A DNA stretch of 64,000 nucleotides from Aliarcobacter lanthieri (GTDB lineage: Bacteria; Campylobacterota; Campylobacteria; Campylobacterales; Arcobacteraceae). Made by a program: the position numbers and the translations under genes. The stretch is taken from the NCBI RefSeq assembly GCF_013201625.1, contig NZ_CP053839.1, positions 2,108,001-2,172,000 on the forward strand, in the 5' to 3' direction. The notes below the pieces were generated by a model. It saw nothing but the letters and a program-made list of their open reading frames with translations, had not been told where the DNA came from and ran no database searches. Of this stretch, positions 49,487 to 56,812 are shown one piece after another; the first letter of the stretch is position 1, and each line of letters opens with the position of its first letter.

Positions 49487-50527
49487 ATGATTTTAGATAA
49501 ATTAATTGGCGTTTTTTCAAACGACATGGCGATAGATTTAGGTACTGCAAATACAATTGTTTCAGTAAGAGGAAAAGGAATTATCATAAATGAGCCTTCA
49601 GTTGTAGCAGTACAAAATGATAGACATGGTAAAGATAAAATCTTAGCAGTTGGTCAAGAAGCGAAAAGAATGCTTGGTAAAACTCCTTTAAATATTCAAG
49701 CTGTTCGACCTATGCAAGATGGAGTTATCGCAGATTTTGAAATGACTGAAAGAATGATTAGATACTTTATCGAAAAAGCTCACTCAAGAAAATCATTTAT
49801 TCGTCCAAGAGTAATTATTTGTATCCCTTATGGTATTACTCAAGTTGAGAGAAAAGCTGTTGAAGAATCTGCTATGAGTGCTGGGGCAAGAGAAGTATTT
49901 TTAGTTGAAGAACCAATGGCAGCAGCTATTGGAGCAGGAATTCCAGTTTCAGATCCAGAAGGACACGTTATTGTTGATATTGGTGGAGGAACTACTGAAA
50001 TTGGTGTTACAAGTTTAGGTGGATTAGTTTTATGTAAAAGTGTAAAAGTTGGTGGAGATAAAATAGATAGATCAATTATCGAATATGTAAGACAAAACTA
50101 TAATTTATTCATAGGTGAAAGAACTGCTGAAACTGTAAAAATAGAAATAGGAGCAGCTGTAAAACTAGAACCTGAACTAAAAATACAAATTAAAGGTAAA
50201 GATCATTCTGGATATTTATCTACTATTGAACTAGGTAGTGAAGGAATAAGAATTGCAATTAAAGAACCTCTAAAAGAGATTGCTTCAGCTATTAGAAGTG
50301 TTTTAGAAAATATGCCACCTGATTTGGCAGGAGATGTTGTTGATAATGGTATTATCATAACTGGTGGTGGTGCTTTAATTAGAGGATTAGATAAATATCT
50401 AATGGAAATTGTAAAAATTCCTGTAAAAATAGCAGAAGAACCACTATTATCTGTTGCTTATGGAACAAGCCAAGTTCTTGATGAACCAGAGCTTTTAAAA
50501 GTTATAGAAGATATGAAAAACTCTTAA
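49487..50527 (+). CDS. mreB: Rod shape-determining protein MreB
   Basis: The 346-residue actin-like protein has MAIDLGTANTIVSVRGKGIIINEPSVVAV (phosphate 1), ADFEMTERMIRYFI, FLVEEPMAAAIGAGIPV, VIVDIGGGTTEIGVTSLGG (phosphate 2), and IIITGGGALIRGLDKYL (adenosine). It forms filaments under the inner membrane that guide cell wall synthesis with MreC, which is encoded 8 bases downstream. Confidence 0.97.
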   Translation: MILDKLIGVFSNDMAIDLGTANTIVSVRGKGIIINEPSVVAVQNDRHGKDKILAVGQEAKRMLGKTPLNIQAVRPMQDGVIADFEMTERMIRYFIEKAHSRKSFIRPRVIICIPYGITQVERKAVEESAMSAGAREVFLVEEPMAAAIGAGIPVSDPEGHVIVDIGGGTTEIGVTSLGGLVLCKSVKVGGDKIDRSIIEYVRQNYNLFIGERTAETVKIEIGAAVKLEPELKIQIKGKDHSGYLSTIELGSEGIRIAIKEPLKEIASAIRSVLENMPPDLAGDVVDNGIIITGGGALIRGLDKYLMEIVKIPVKIAEEPLLSVAYGTSQVLDEPELLKVIEDMKNS

Positions 50528-50534
50528 TTTTTAA

Positions 50535-51362
50535 ATGAAGCGAATACTTTTTATTTTTCTATTTTTAATTGCTGGACTAGCTTATCTTTTTGAATTAGAT
50601 AAGTTTCTAGCAAAACATTTTAGTGTATTTTCAACAATAAAAACTGCATATATAAATACATATATTTCTGTATCAGAAAAAATTGCAAATCACTTTGAAC
50701 ATGAACGAATGATAAAAGAACTTCAAACTGAAAATATAGAACTAAAAGAGTATAAAATACTTTATAATGAATCTCATGCAAGAATTAATAATTTTAAAGA
50801 GTTTATAAAAAATGTTGAACTCCCAGATGTAGATTCTCAAATAGAGATAATAAGAGTTTTATCATATATAAATTTTGATGACTTTACAAATGTTTGGTTA
50901 GATAGAGTTCCTGAACCAAATAATAAAATATTGGGATTAATTTCTGAAAATTATGCATCTGGAATTGCTCTGAACAAACAAGGAAAACTAATAGGTCTTT
51001 TAAATGGAAATAAAGATTGTACATATGCTGTCTTTATAGGAGCAGATAAAAGTCCTGGTATTGTAACTGCTGCTGATAATTTAGATGAACTTTTTGTAAA
51101 ATTTATTCCTATTTGGTCTGATATTCATATTGGTGATGAAGTTATAACTTCTGGTATGGATAATATCTTCTTTGAAGGCTTAAAAGTTGGAAAAGTTACA
51201 GAAATAAAAGAGTTCCCAGATATGAAAATTGCAACTATTAAACCATATGCTAGTCCGCTTAAAAAAAGATATTTTTATACTTACAAAAAAATAAACAATT
51301 TAGATGATGATTTAAAAAATCCTGAAGAAATAAAACAATTAGAAGAAAATCTTAATAACTAG
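50535..51362 (+). CDS. mreC: Rod shape-determining protein MreC
   Basis: The 275-residue protein has one N-terminal membrane segment (ILFIFLFLIAGLAYLFELD), a coiled-coil region (MIKELQTENIELKEYKIL), and a beta-rich periplasmic part with LGLISENYASGIALNKQGKLIGL and GDEVITSGMDNIFFEGLKVGKVTEI, typical of MreC. It links MreB to periplasmic wall enzymes. No MreD is seen after it. It ends with an 11-base overlap with the convergent ribE. Confidence 0.9.
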   Translation: MKRILFIFLFLIAGLAYLFELDKFLAKHFSVFSTIKTAYINTYISVSEKIANHFEHERMIKELQTENIELKEYKILYNESHARINNFKEFIKNVELPDVDSQIEIIRVLSYINFDDFTNVWLDRVPEPNNKILGLISENYASGIALNKQGKLIGLLNGNKDCTYAVFIGADKSPGIVTAADNLDELFVKFIPIWSDIHIGDEVITSGMDNIFFEGLKVGKVTEIKEFPDMKIATIKPYASPLKKRYFYTYKKINNLDDDLKNPEEIKQLEENLNN

Positions 51363-51960
51363 CCATTATCTTATCTACTTCACTCCAAGTTAAACTATTG
51401 TCTTTTTTAAATAAATTGTAAACATATCTTGCAAACATATCTGTTTCTATATTTACCTTTGATCCAATTTTGTATCTTTTAAAAAGTGTATTTTGAATTG
51501 TATGTGGAATAATTGTAAGTCTAAAACTATCTTTAAAAACTTCATTTATAGTTAAAGATACCCCATCAATAGTTATACTTCCTTTTGAAATAATATATTT
51601 CATAAATTCTTTAGGAAGTAATATAAAAAAATCTGTTGAATTTCCATTTTGTACTATTTTTGAAATCGTTCCTACACAATCAACATGCCCTTGTACAATA
51701 TGCCCTTCAAATCTATCTCCCATTTGCATTGCTGGTTCTATATGAACTTCATTTTTATAGTTTTCCATAGCTATAATTTTTTGAGTTTCTGGAGACAACT
51801 CAACAGTAAAACTACCTTTTTGAATTTTTACAACAGTTAAACAAGATCCATTTACAGCTATTGAATCCCCTATTTTAGGATTATATTGTGCTTTTAATGT
51901 TAAAAAGTTATTTGTAAAACTTTCAACTTTTGCTAATTCTCTAATAAGTCCTGTAAACAC
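51352..51960 (-). CDS. ribE: Riboflavin synthase, alpha chain
   Basis: The 202-residue protein has two lumazine-binding repeats: MFTGLIRELAKVESF with IGDSIAVNGSCLTVV, and GHIVQGHVDCVGTISK with GSITIDGVSLTIN. The order and length match RibE (also called RibC). It makes riboflavin from two molecules of dimethylribityllumazine. It starts directly after the transporter gene upstream on the same strand and overlaps mreC by 11 bases at its end. Confidence 0.94.
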   Translation of the reverse strand: MFTGLIRELAKVESFTNNFLTLKAQYNPKIGDSIAVNGSCLTVVKIQKGSFTVELSPETQKIIAMENYKNEVHIEPAMQMGDRFEGHIVQGHVDCVGTISKIVQNGNSTDFFILLPKEFMKYIISKGSITIDGVSLTINEVFKDSFRLTIIPHTIQNTLFKRYKIGSKVNIETDMFARYVYNLFKKDNSLTWSEVDKIMASY

Positions 51961-52929
51961 TTAAAAACCTTTCTTATTTAATCTTTTAAAAATAAATATA
52001 TATATTATTGAGCTAATCAACTCTATAAAAGTTTGAGTAACAATAACAGCTGGAAGTAAAGGTAAAGCATTTGGAATAGCTAAAGCCAACGGTAAAATAA
52101 TCAAAGAATTTCTTGTTGCTGAACTAAATGCTATTGCACTTTTTTCTTTTACTTCAAATATAAATAATCTACCAATATTAAATCCAATAATAGGTGCAAT
52201 AATAGCAAAAGCTATATAAATGGGAATAATAAATAAAATATCATTTATAGCTTGACTTAATTGTGGAATAACAGTCAATATAACAACAAATAAAACAAAA
52301 GCTGTTGAAGGAACAGGAAGAAGATTGAAAATATCTACTAATTTTTCTATAAAAATACTTTTTTTAGAAAATATTTGAAAAAATGTTGCTAACACAAAAG
52401 GGATTAAAATTAAGAATATAAAAGCTTCTATAAAAGGTGTTATTTCTACTAAATTAGATGCTTCCTTACCTAAAAACATAGATAAATATACTGGTAATAG
52501 TAACATTTGAATTATTAATAAAATAGGTGTTGAAGCAAGAATTAATTTTGAATCAGCCTTTCCTAAATGAGAAAATGTAACAACATAATCTACACAAGGA
52601 GTCAATAAAACAAATAGCACTCCCAATCTTAATAAAGGATTATCAGGTAAAAACTGTATAAGAATAAAAACCAATATAGGAATAATAATAAAATTTGAAA
52701 ATAGCAAAGCAAAAATAAATTTAGTTTTCCTAAATGCTTGAGATAGTTCTGAAATAGGAACCTGTAAAAAAGTAACAAATAACATTAAAGCTAATGCTGG
52801 ATTAATCATACTTTCAAAATTAGAAGTATTTGGTACAATAAAAGTGATTAGAATAGCAATTGCGATTATTATAAAATATATAGCAATTTGATAATTTTCC
52901 ATAAAATCTTTTAGTTTTATAAAATTCAT
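51961..52929 (-). CDS. ACR3/bile-acid:sodium symporter-family transporter
   Basis: The 322-residue protein has about ten hydrophobic segments, with ALALMLFVTFLQVPISELSQAFR, LLTPCVDYVVTFSHLGKADSKLILASTPIL, and KEKSAIAFSSATRNSLIILPLALAIPN. The TPCVDY and SSATRNSL motifs point to the arsenite (ACR3) branch of the bile-acid symporter superfamily, where a cysteine in TM4 is needed. No ArsR or arsenate reductase is next to it, so arsenite as a substrate is uncertain. It could carry another anion. It is directly followed by ribE on the same strand. Confidence 0.75.
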   Translation of the reverse strand: MNFIKLKDFMENYQIAIYFIIIAIAILITFIVPNTSNFESMINPALALMLFVTFLQVPISELSQAFRKTKFIFALLFSNFIIIPILVFILIQFLPDNPLLRLGVLFVLLTPCVDYVVTFSHLGKADSKLILASTPILLIIQMLLLPVYLSMFLGKEASNLVEITPFIEAFIFLILIPFVLATFFQIFSKKSIFIEKLVDIFNLLPVPSTAFVLFVVILTVIPQLSQAINDILFIIPIYIAFAIIAPIIGFNIGRLFIFEVKEKSAIAFSSATRNSLIILPLALAIPNALPLLPAVIVTQTFIELISSIIYIFIFKRLNKKGF

Positions 52930-53083
52930 TTGAACTCCATCATAAATAGAATTTCGATTATACTTAAAAAACCTTTAGATAAAATTTGTATATATTGACT
53001 ATAATTGATAAATAAATTATTTTTCTCTTAATTAAAAATTAAGAATTATTTTTCTAAACTACGACAAATTTAGATATCTCATA

Positions 53084-53095
53084 AAAGGAGCGGAG
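53084..53095 (+). promoter_or_regulatory. Strong ribosome binding site of the leader ORF
   Basis: AAAGGAG (53084-53090) ends five bases before an ATG at 53096, and a further GGAG lies at 53092-53095 just before it. This is one of the best Shine-Dalgarno sequences in the window, in a region without a listed gene. It is the main argument that the short ORF is translated. Confidence 0.6.
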
Positions 53096-53167
53096 ATGGA
53101 TTCAGATAGTAGTCAGAGTAGATTCATGAAGTTTTATTTTATGATTAATATAAACTTGAGTATTTAA
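53096..53167 (+). CDS. Putative leader peptide of mgtE (23 codons)
   Basis: The ORF encodes 23 residues beginning M-D-S-D-S-S-Q-S-R-F-M-K-F and ending in a hydrophobic part with I, N and L. It has an optimal ribosome binding site. It lies 168 bases upstream of the magnesium transporter gene mgtE. Early acidic residues (positions 2 and 4) followed by R and K-F recall the enteric MgtL leader (which begins Met-Glu-Pro-Asp-Pro), whose translation senses low magnesium. The second half of the ORF forms the left arm of a hairpin with sequence beyond its stop codon, so translation would prevent pairing. Function is inferred. It could also be a small free-standing protein. Confidence 0.5.
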   Translation: MDSDSSQSRFMKFYFMININLSI

Positions 53168-53215
53168 AATATTAATATAAACCTTAAAATTCTTATAAAT
53201 CATTAAAACTTCATG
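53125..53215 (+). other. Long-range hairpin in the mgtE leader
   Basis: CATGAAGTTTTA (53125-53136) pairs perfectly with TAAAACTTCATG (53204-53215). ATGATT (53141-53146) pairs with AATCAT (53198-53203), leaving a TTTT bulge on the left arm. The loop of about 50 bases is AT-rich and holds a 12-base direct repeat. No T tract follows the right arm, so it is not a plain terminator. It could control access to downstream sequence or stop a transcript together with Rho. Confidence 0.55.
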
Positions 53216-53335
53216 TAAATTGCTTTAACCTAAAGTTGATAGTTTTGTACAATAATCTTTAAAATCCTATTTGTAGATTGTAATCAATATAATACTTAAC
53301 TATTGTAAATTAAACAAATTTGTATGGAGTAAAAT

Positions 53336-54715
53336 ATGAATAAAAACGAATTAATTTCTAGTATAAAAAATGTTATACAAAATAAAAGTAAAAAAGAGAT
53401 TGTAAAAATCATACACAATACATACCCAGTAGATTTAATAGAAGCTTTTGAGGAGTTAGAACCTCAAGATATTTTTAATTTTATATCTTTGATGCCCCTA
53501 AAAAGCAGTTCAGAACTATTTGGATATTTAGATGAACAAATGCAATTAACTATTCTTGATTTTATGGATAGAACGATGATTAAAGAACTTCTTGAAAAAA
53601 TGCCAAGCGATGAAAGAGCTGATTTATTTAACATAATGTCAGAAACACTACAAGATAGAATTTTACCTATTTTAAATAAAGCAGAACAAGAAGATATAAT
53701 AAAATTATCATCTTATAATGAAAATGTAATTGGTTCACTTATGACATCAAACTATGCTACATTACAAGCTAGTATGAATGCATTAGAAGCAATATCATAT
53801 TTGAGAAAAATTGCTGGTGATATTGAAACTATTTATGAAACATTTGTAATAAATGAAAATAGAGAGCTTTTAGGAAGTGTCTCTTTACAAGCATTAATTA
53901 TGGCAGAACCAGATAGTTTAATAGAAGATTTTATGAGAAGCAATCCTATATCTTTAAAAGCTAGTGATCCCATAGAATTTTGTGTTAGGGTAATAAAAGA
54001 TTATGATTTAGTTATAGCACCTGTTGTTGATGATAACAATATACTTATGGGAATAATCACTTATGATGATGTTATTGATGTAGCTATTGAAGAAGCAGAA
54101 GAAGATTTCCAAAAAATGAGTGGTACAAGTGTTGAAGTAAATAAACATGGAAAAGTAGGTTTAATAACAAATATAAAAGAAGCAACAATATCAACTCTTT
54201 ATAAAAAAAGAATTTACTGGCTTGTTATTTTAGTTTTTGGTAATATATTTTCAAGTGCAGGTATAGCTTATTTTGAAGATACAATATCAGCATATATAGC
54301 TCTTGTATTCTTTTTACCATTACTTATAGGTAGTGGAGGAAATGCAGGTTCTCAATCTGCTACATTAACAGTAAGAGCTTTGGCTACAGGAGATATTAAA
54401 TTAAAAGATTGGGGAGGAATGCTTGGGAAAGAGCTAGTTATAGCTACTTTACTTGGAATAACTATGGCTTTAGCTGTAACTTTTATAGGTATTTATAGAG
54501 GTGGATATACTATAGCTTTAGTTGTATCTTTATCTATGATTTTTATAGTAATGTTTGGTAGTATTGTTGGAATGTCATTACCATTTTTACTAAGTAAATT
54601 TAAATTAGACCCAGCATCAGCTAGTTCACCACTTATTACTTCAATAACTGATGCTGTTGGTGTTTTAATATTCTTTTCTATTGCAACTGCAATTCTTGAT
54701 TTACCAACACCATAA
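53336..54715 (+). CDS. mgtE: Magnesium transporter MgtE
   Basis: The 459-residue protein has the MgtE layout: an N-terminal helical domain (MPLKSSSELFGYLDEQMQL, ELLEKMPSDERADLFNIM), two CBS domains (about 135-255, with VIGSLMTSNYATL and MGIITYDDVIDVAIEEAEEDFQKMSGTS), and a C-terminal channel with five membrane helices containing LLIGSGGNAGSQSATLTVRALATGDI. It brings in Mg2+ and closes when cytosolic Mg2+ is high. The ribosome binding site is TGGAG. A long leader with a likely peptide lies upstream and a strong terminator follows. Confidence 0.95.
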   Translation: MNKNELISSIKNVIQNKSKKEIVKIIHNTYPVDLIEAFEELEPQDIFNFISLMPLKSSSELFGYLDEQMQLTILDFMDRTMIKELLEKMPSDERADLFNIMSETLQDRILPILNKAEQEDIIKLSSYNENVIGSLMTSNYATLQASMNALEAISYLRKIAGDIETIYETFVINENRELLGSVSLQALIMAEPDSLIEDFMRSNPISLKASDPIEFCVRVIKDYDLVIAPVVDDNNILMGIITYDDVIDVAIEEAEEDFQKMSGTSVEVNKHGKVGLITNIKEATISTLYKKRIYWLVILVFGNIFSSAGIAYFEDTISAYIALVFFLPLLIGSGGNAGSQSATLTVRALATGDIKLKDWGGMLGKELVIATLLGITMALAVTFIGIYRGGYTIALVVSLSMIFIVMFGSIVGMSLPFLLSKFKLDPASASSPLITSITDAVGVLIFFSIATAILDLPTP

Positions 54716-54721
54716 ATTTTA

Positions 54722-54748
54722 AATAATGGCTTATAAATAGCCATTATT
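54722..54748 (+). terminator. Terminator after mgtE
   Basis: AATAATGGCT (54722-54731) pairs with AGCCATTATT (54739-54748) around a 7-base loop, 7 bases after the mgtE stop. A stem of 10 pairs with a GGC/GCC core is strong for this AT-rich genome. A short TCTATTG follows, so the U-tract is poor. Confidence 0.6.
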
Positions 54749-54836
54749 CTATTGTAAAAGTATATTTTCTTTTAAATATTAATATTTAAGAGAAAAATAA
54801 TAATCTTTAGTATATCTTATCTAATATATATTAAAC

Positions 54837-54871
54837 ACTTAAAAAACCTTTAGATAAAATTTGGATATAAT
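54837..54871 (+). promoter_or_regulatory. Promoter of mnmG with shared 27-base element
   Basis: The 27 bases from 54837 to 54863 (core ACCTTTAGATAAAATTTG) repeat exactly those at 52962-52988 in the mgtE leader region. They are followed here by TATAAT (54866-54871), about 73 bases before the mnmG start. Repetition upstream of two genes suggests a promoter or regulator site. Confidence 0.5.
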
Positions 54872-54943
54872 GCCCAAAATTCATAAGAAGCTTATTTTAA
54901 CTAATTTTATAAAATCGAAATATTCTTTCAAAAAGGAAAATAA

Positions 54944-56812
54944 ATGCAATACGATATTATCGTTGTTGGTGGTGGCCATGCGGGAATAGAAGCGGCCCTT
55001 TGTAGTGCAAGAATGGGTAAAAAAACACTATTAATCACTATGTTAGTTGAACAAATAGGAGCAGCTAGTTGTAACCCTGCTATTGGTGGTTTAGCAAAAG
55101 GTCATTTAGTTAGAGAATTAGATGCTCTAGGTGGAGAAATGGGGCTTTGTACAGATGCTACTGGAATACAATTTCGTATTTTAAATGGTTCAAAAGGAGC
55201 TGCTGTTCAGGGTTCAAGAGCACAAATTGATATGGATAAATACCGTGCATATATGAGAGAAGTTTGCCATAACACTCCAAATTTAGATATTTATCAAGAT
55301 GAAGTATCAGAACTTTTAGTAAAAAATAATGAAGTATATGGAGTAAAGACAAAATTAACAGAAGAATTTTTAGCAAAAAAAGTCATTCTAACAACTGGAA
55401 CTTTTATGCGTGGACTTGTTCATATTGGAGAAAATACTTATTCAGCTGGTCGAGCTTGGGAATTACCATCTTCTACACTTTCAACTCAACTAAAAGAATT
55501 AGGATTAGATGTAGGAAGACTAAAAACAGGAACTCCATCAAGAATTGATGCAAATTCAATAGATTTCTCAGTTATGGACTTGCATGGTGGAGATGTAAAT
55601 CCAGCACCATTTTCATTCAGAACGGATAAAAAAAGTTTTAATCCAACACAATATCCATGCTATGTTACTTATACAAATCTTGAAACACATGATATTATCT
55701 CACAAAATTTTCATAGAGCACCTATTTATACAGGGCAAATAGAAGGTTTAGGACCAAGATATTGTCCTAGTATTGAAGATAAAGTAAAAAGATTTAGTGA
55801 AAGAGATAGACATCAACTATTTTTGGAACCACAAACTTCAATGTGCACAGAATACTATATAAATGGTATGTCAAGCTCTCTTCCAATTGAAATTCAAAAA
55901 AAGATGATTCAATCTGTTCGTGGTTTAGAAAATGCTAGAATTGTAAGATACGGATATGCTATTGAATACGATTATGTTGATCCAACAGAGCTAAAACATA
56001 CTTTAGAAACTAAAAAAATAAAAAATCTCTATCATGCAGGTCAAATAAATGCAACAACAGGATATGAAGAAGCAGCAGCACAAGGACTTATGGCAAGTAT
56101 TAATGCCTGTTTAGCAATAGATGATAAAGAGCCTTTTATTTTACGAAGAGATGAAGCTTATATTGGAGTTTTAATCGATGATTTAGTAACAAAAGGAACT
56201 CATGAACCATATAGAATGTTTACTTCAAGAGCTGAATATAGACTGCTTTTAAGAGAAGAAAATGCTGATTTAAGGCTTAGCCAATATGGATATGAGTTAG
56301 GATTAATTTCAAAAGAACAATTAGAAAAAGTAGAAGAAAAAAGAAAGATTTTAAATGATGCTATTGAGTTTATGGCTTCAACTTGGCTAACTTCAAAAAA
56401 AGAGACTTTAGAACTTCTTGAAAGTATAGGTGAAGATAAAATCAATGATAAAGTTTTATTAATTGATTTGATAGGAAGGAATACTATTGACAATCAGAAA
56501 TTTGATATTCTTGTGCCAACTTTAGCAAATATTGATGAATACACAAAAGAACAAATTATAATAGAAGCAAAATATTATAGATATATTCAAAAACAACAAA
56601 AACAAATAGAAAAAATGAAAAAGATGTTAAAACTGAGAATACCTGATGAGTTTTCATATAAAGGGCTTCCAGGACTTTCAAATGAAGTTGTAGAAAAGCT
56701 AGAAAAACATAGACCACCAACACTTTACAATGCAAGTTTAATATCTGGTATTACTCCAGCTGCACTTGATATTATACATTTAAATTTGAATATGTTTTTA
56801 AAACAAAAATAG
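54944..56812 (+). CDS. mnmG: tRNA U34 carboxymethylaminomethyl-modification enzyme MnmG (GidA)
   Basis: The 622-residue flavoprotein has [28 protein letters not shown] (FAD site), [91 protein letters not shown] and [15 protein letters not shown]. The C-terminal domain ([36 protein letters not shown]) binds MnmE. The enzyme modifies uridine 34 of certain tRNAs. Length equals that of other MnmG proteins. The ribosome binding site is AAAGGAAAA. Confidence 0.97.

Follow-up and report, generated by a model that had tools for sequence, protein, structure and literature searches.

A short, acidic leader ORF of 23 codons, located upstream of the gene for the magnesium channel MgtE in Aliarcobacter lanthieri, appears to form part of a translational switch, in which the SD region of mgtE is predicted to be opened or closed by the position of ribosomes on the leader; the existence of such a switch is well supported by modelling of the leader RNA. 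The proposal that completion of the leader ORF is linked to translation of mgtE (that is, that the leader acts as a translational attenuator), with low Mg2+ as the most likely signal, is one that we consider evenly balanced between being right and being wrong. A broader proposal, in which a Mg2+ sensor made up solely of the ribosome and the acidic leader ORF evolved in a different phylum, independently of the enteric mgtL and mgtQ, acts directly on the SD and has moved from species to species along with mgtE in a self-regulated cassette, is more tentative, and we hold it with somewhat less than even confidence. The window referred to below is the entire stretch of 64,000 nucleotides that was analysed (positions 2,108,001 to 2,172,000 of contig NZ_CP053839.1), and all features are numbered within it; the elements of the leader, mgtE, the hairpin after it and the promoter-like repeat before it lie on its + strand.

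The regulated gene (53336-54715) is, as judged from the domains of its product, a genuine and complete mgtE: the 459-residue Mg2+ channel/transporter that it encodes displays the N-terminal, CBS and transmembrane domains of the family (Pfam MgtE_N, CBS and MgtE), and its best solved relative is the MgtE of T. thermophilus (PDB 2yvx, 3.7e-79). The genome of 2.28 Mb is Campylobacterota-like in that the best PDB match of its enolase is 3qn3, the enolase of C. jejuni. It contains one MgtE and two CorA genes, as well as one bL31 and ABC-F proteins, none of which reaches the EttA cut-off; a contig scan for relatives returned only Clostridia and Mycoplasma, at about 30-33%. Just past the mgtE stop lies a hairpin (54722-54748, -11.3 kcal/mol, z -3.9, 0/200 shuffles), without a long T run and kept in four species, that probably marks the end of the transcription unit. 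Among the 31 genomes of the genus that were sampled, this mgtE is found in only four, with proteins that are 87-96% identical: those of the window species and of three others, referred to here as G012, G014 and G026.

The leader ORF (53096-53167, MDSDSSQSRFMKFYFMININLSI) begins at an ATG (53096) that follows the SD sequence AAAGGAG (53084-53090) after a 5-base spacer, and ends at a stop (53165-53167) located 168 bases before the mgtE ATG (53336). These elements had been described in an initial annotation of the same DNA, and their coordinates proved correct on re-reading. The corresponding SD is AGGAG in G012 and G026 and GAGGAG in G014. The predicted peptide starts with MDSDSS, carries serine at positions 3, 5, 6 and 8 and lacks proline; Asp2 and Asp4 are kept in 4/4 species. 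An imperfect 21-base tandem repeat (53144-53191, ATTAATATAAACTTGAGTATT / ATTAATATAAACCTTAAAATT) covers the end of the ORF and the loop of the hairpin described below.

The distribution of the leader and its gene suggests that the two have been mobile. The usual gene order in the genus genomes examined is mreB-mreC-ribE-mnmG, and a comparison of the cassette neighbourhoods (L046, L047, L048 and window positions 49487-56812) revealed two different positions within one neighbourhood: between ribE and mnmG in the window species and G012, and between mreC and ribE in G014 and G026. In particular, the mgtE bases of the window species and G012 are 95% identical, as compared to 49% identity between their MreC proteins, which argues that leader and gene most likely moved as a unit and that a recent horizontal transfer of the pair is probable on sequence grounds. 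The window species also harbors, between ribE and the leader, a gene of the sodium-bile-acid-symporter family (51961-52929, Pfam SBF), which adjoins ribE in one further genome of the genus (G030) and was not observed here in the remaining genomes of the genus that were inspected. A 62-nucleotide direct repeat, with copies at 52962-53023 and 54837-54898 that are 84% identical, closely flanks the cassette, as if left by insertion; in G012 the copy on the mnmG side is present and that on the other side is not recognisable. Two further families of direct repeats (D2 and D4) were judged to be background.

Because the leader and the gene move together, the silent sites of mgtE itself provide a fair clock against which conservation of the leader can be measured. 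The leader is present in all four of the genomes that carry this mgtE, and the start, stop, frame and SD of its ORF are kept in each; the comparison with close relatives that had been suggested earlier, in which retention of the ORF start and its acidic residues was to be examined, was positive in 4/4. Across these species 69 of the 72 ORF nucleotides are invariant, compared to 66 in the best 72-nucleotide stretch of mgtE, and between the window species and G026 the ORF is 100% identical, as against 71% identity at the fourfold sites of mgtE. G012 differs by two substitutions, Ser5 to Gly and Asn20 to Ile, and G014 by a silent one at Asn20; the ORF shows no other changes. All 18 of the leader codons that have synonyms and encode an invariant amino acid are identical at the codon level, versus 59% of such codons in mgtE (P ~1e-4), or 18 of 19 if Asn20 is counted (P ~7e-4). 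This conservation, which exceeds the silent-site rate, indicates that the constraint acts for the most part at the level of the RNA, either in addition to the peptide or more strongly than on it. The first ten codons (53096-53124) are purine-rich and conserved at the nucleotide level, and are part of neither of the two main helices.

Searches beyond these four species gave a narrow distribution. A covariance model of the leader (R1), run against samples of the order (349 genomes) and the phylum (397 genomes), found only the same four at E <0.001; the best of its weak matches (G004, 0.005) was located inside a coding gene. BLAST searches with the leader against 104 genomes of the family returned, beyond the four, weak and short matches, and those inspected were mostly in or near unrelated genes. 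A comparable switch with an upstream ORF was not found in the leaders of 26 distant mgtE genes of the family (proteins about 30% identical), or in that of a 42% relative (G403). The corA leaders of the same genome yielded no strong candidate, in a scan in which one corA start was misplaced and which is therefore not a clean negative.

The initial annotation had raised the possibility of a magnesium-sensing leader at mgtE, with a hairpin between the second half of the ORF and positions 53198-53215. That hairpin was confirmed, as an 18-base-pair stem: its left arm (53125-53146, codons 10-17 of the ORF) contributes CATGAAGTTTTA (53125-53136), which is 12/12 complementary to TAAAACTTCATG (53204-53215), and ATGATT (53141-53146), which extends the stem by six pairs with AATCAT (53198-53203). 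Positions 53204-53215 of the right arm are invariant in four species. What the earlier description had missed is a second, exclusive pairing and, with it, the output of the switch in the form of access to the SD. A portion of the right arm, together with the six bases beyond it, forms an anti-SD (ACUUCAUGUAAAUU, 53208-53221), which matches AAUUUGUAUGGAGU (53317-53330) in the mgtE SD region (AATTTGTATGGAGT) with 14 contiguous pairs, three of them G-U, and a duplex energy of -11.8 kcal/mol. The right arm is thus complementary both to the left arm (an anti-anti-SD) and to the mgtE SD, so that the two pairings are mutually exclusive and compete for a single anti-SD. An unconstrained RNAalifold consensus selected the pairing of the right arm with the mgtE SD, rather than the hairpin first described. 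Between the anti-SD and the SD lies a second hairpin (53239-53303), for which 55 of 66 alignment columns are invariant.

Across the four species, 100% of the cells of the ORF hairpin helix and 94.6% of those of the anti-SD helix are paired, as compared to 22-49% and 29-61%, respectively, in slid controls. Compensatory changes are absent from both helices in these four similar sequences, the arms of which hardly vary. The folding energy of the leader as a whole is no better than that of shuffled sequences (z 0.03 for 53084-53335 and -0.74 for 53084-53225), and the window contains three occurrences of AAGGAG-N3-9-ATG, against 3.4 expected. With an SD and ATG that occur at the chance rate, and an ordinary overall fold, the case for the switch depends on conservation and on the particular way in which the elements are arranged.

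That arrangement was evaluated through the predicted accessibility (termed 'openness') of the mgtE GGAG, either in the free RNA or with the leader ORF occupied. Occupation of the ORF is predicted to reduce openness from 0.98 to 0.00 in the window species, from 0.92 to 0.01 in G012, from 0.66 to 0.02 in G026 and from 0.26 to 0.01 in G014, such that the direction of the difference is the same in 4/4 species, with a strong effect in two, an intermediate one in G026 and a weak one in G014. When the leader was dinucleotide-shuffled 500 times with the mgtE start left unchanged, no shuffle matched the observed difference (nor did any of 400 in an earlier version that scored UGGA, one base upstream of GGAG). 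In a comparison of 35 window genes that received the same treatment, mgtE ranked highest with 0.98, the next value being 0.31. A scan with a ribosome footprint along the window sequence predicted that the SD is open with the P site at codons 1-6 (0.72-0.79), closed at codons 7-17 (<=0.01), and open again at codons 18-24. Asp2 and Asp4 fall within codons 1-6, where the loss of a ribosome would correspond to the ON state. Since a ribosome at codons 18-24, during termination, leaves the SD open, the OFF state would depend on ribosome traffic or on the timing of folding. The behavior is not uniform across species: lengthening the 5' end preserves the effect in the window species and in G012, and weakens it in G026; at equilibrium, the free RNA is largely closed from the outset in G014, as it is in G026 once the 5' end is extended; and the open state in G012 diminishes beginning at codon 3.

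Taken together with known systems, these predictions suggest the following mechanism. In the OFF state, ribosomes that translate the leader would cover codons 7-17, and with them the left arm, thereby freeing the right arm to pair with the mgtE SD and leaving mgtE untranslated. In the ON state, ribosomes would drop off or fail to move beyond the first codons (MDSDSS), which would allow the left arm to capture the right arm and leave the mgtE SD free. The signal would most likely be a low cytosolic concentration of Mg2+, which would destabilise 70S ribosomes that carry a nascent chain with the early residues Asp2 and Asp4, as in MgtL. Studies of MgtL have established that ribosomes drop off early, at acidic residues, in low Mg2+, and that Glu2 and Asp4 matter for that process; they also indicated that ribosomes are not in every case destabilised by di-acidic residues on their own (PMC11282234), which, like the lack of proline in the present leader, counts against the proposal. 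In Salmonella, control of access to the mgtB SD by an acidic upstream ORF (mgtQ) and alternative stems was demonstrated by experiment (PMC8092293). We infer from the conservation and the predicted switch that the leader is translated and controls MgtE output, and, by analogy, that Mg2+ is the signal. The earlier suggestion of an MgtL-like regulatory leader for mgtE is borne out in part, most clearly for the leader ORF, through its conservation and the predicted switch; the likeness of the M-D-S-D-S-S start to MgtL proved closer than had been stated, since the second and fourth residues are acidic in each.

The same switch might respond to another signal, such as the supply of serine or methionine, initiation capacity or general ribosome stress, a possibility that we regard as improbable but appreciable. 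The footprint scan is indifferent to the reason why a ribosome fails to reach codon 7, the four early serines of the leader would suit a response to serine, and the SD-linked mgtQ has been tied to acidic residues and L31, not directly to Mg2+; against this stand the identity of the regulated gene as a Mg2+ channel, and the retention of Asp2 and Asp4 where Ser5 is not kept. Alternatively, the leader RNA could be an unclassified riboswitch that senses a ligand or metal directly, to which the ORF would be incidental. The excess of nucleotide over protein constraint, and the conservation of the first ten codons outside any helix, would be compatible with such an element; it is nonetheless quite unlikely, given that no Rfam family matched the leader in a search of 52300-53600 with E up to 5 (two weak matches lay outside it), that a multi-helix aptamer was not seen in a fold that is no better than shuffles, and that the ORF start, stop, frame and SD are all kept.

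An attenuator of the type proposed above would require transcription to begin upstream of the leader and to continue into mgtE. The upstream neighbours point away on the window strand, and the promoter therefore probably lies between 52930 and 53336. The 52962-53023 copy of the direct repeat, a duplicate of the mnmG promoter region, contains a promoter-like TAGATA-18-TATAAT (10/12, ending at 53005), and is a candidate leader promoter on the basis of that sequence. No intrinsic terminator-like site was found in 52900-53400; the lack of such a site between the ORF and mgtE fits an output that is translational rather than transcriptional, and the leader is presumably transcribed through into mgtE. 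A transcript that omits the leader could start at a TATAAT (53288-53293) found within the second hairpin, about 30 bases before the mgtE SD. If mgtE were expressed from that site with a short, ordinary leader, the ORF and hairpin would be either a separate unit (a small RNA or protein) or inactive. The proximity of the hexamer to the SD, and the conservation of its surroundings, agree with this arrangement, which we likewise rate as distinctly unlikely: the hexamer reads TATAGT in G012, a species that retains both mgtE and the leader; the mnmG-promoter duplicate lies upstream of the whole leader; and neither the peak conservation of the ORF and right arm nor the 14-pair match between the right arm and the mgtE SD would be explained. 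Chance, by which a short ORF and a hairpin would have arisen at random in AT-rich intergenic sequence, would account for the chance-level SD and ATG and the ordinary global folding energy, but is disfavoured, and very improbable, in view of the conservation and of the two null comparisons of the switch, with shuffles and with real genes.

Control of Mg2+ transporters by leader ORFs is already known as a kind, and the proposed attenuator can be compared with two enteric examples. With mgtL, which precedes mgtA in Salmonella and E. coli, it shares a small ORF ahead of the gene for a Mg2+ transporter, acidic second and fourth residues (Glu2/Asp4 in MgtL, Asp2/Asp4 here; all four species thus have acidic residues in the first five codons) and, as predicted here, a transporter that is turned on when the ORF is left unfinished. 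MgtL differs in its EPDP motif, with alternating prolines that the present leader lacks, and in its use of Rho-dependent transcription termination to control the gene of a P-type ATPase (PMC11282234, PMC6460261), whereas access to the SD of an MgtE channel gene is predicted here. Homology to mgtL was not found, a result based on the lack of an Rfam family matching the leader. With mgtQ, which precedes mgtB, the leader shares, as a prediction, an early-acidic upstream ORF that overlaps one of two mutually exclusive, SD-controlling pairings. However, mgtQ has 8 codons, lies inside an operon and involves four RNA segments (PMC8092293), as compared to three here, and its order of pairings (1:2/3:4 versus 2:3, with the ORF in segment 1) is not that of the present leader, in which the ORF holds the anti-anti-SD. 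The consequences are opposite: since the mgtQ ORF overlaps segment 1, its occupancy opens the SD and loss of its start codon lowers mgtB (PMC8092293), whereas the overlap of the present ORF with the anti-anti-SD means that occupancy would close the SD, and that mgtE should go up if the start codon were lost.

Two classes of structured RNA invite a similar comparison. M-box (ykoK) riboswitches are also found in leaders of Mg2+ transporter genes, including those of the mgtE type, and the translational form in M. tuberculosis shares the logic of an anti-SD and anti-anti-SD (PMC12810186); they differ in that no Rfam M-box match (52300-53600, E up to 5) and no aptamer was found here. The Thioalkalivibrio mgtE motif, a riboswitch candidate, also places a structured RNA before mgtE. 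In the published description consulted here (PMC11109978), that motif is confined to Thioalkalivibrio, its SD and its AUG lie where a large P4 stem begins, and no upstream ORF is mentioned; that description sets it apart from the present leader. A search of the open-access literature turned up no report of leader-ORF control of mgtE in this group. Given that no known RNA family was matched, and that the wiring is unlike that of both enteric examples, the leader appears to represent a new variant.

If the proposed attenuator is correct, the destabilisation of ribosomes by acidic leader peptides would serve to sense magnesium outside the Enterobacteria, and would apply to the MgtE channel, which is otherwise linked to M-box riboswitches. 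It would do so through a minimal switch of three segments, without Rho or an aptamer, and would offer a testable case of convergent evolution in ribosome-based Mg2+ sensing. It would further imply that such a switch can travel with its gene, which would arrive in a new host already regulated.
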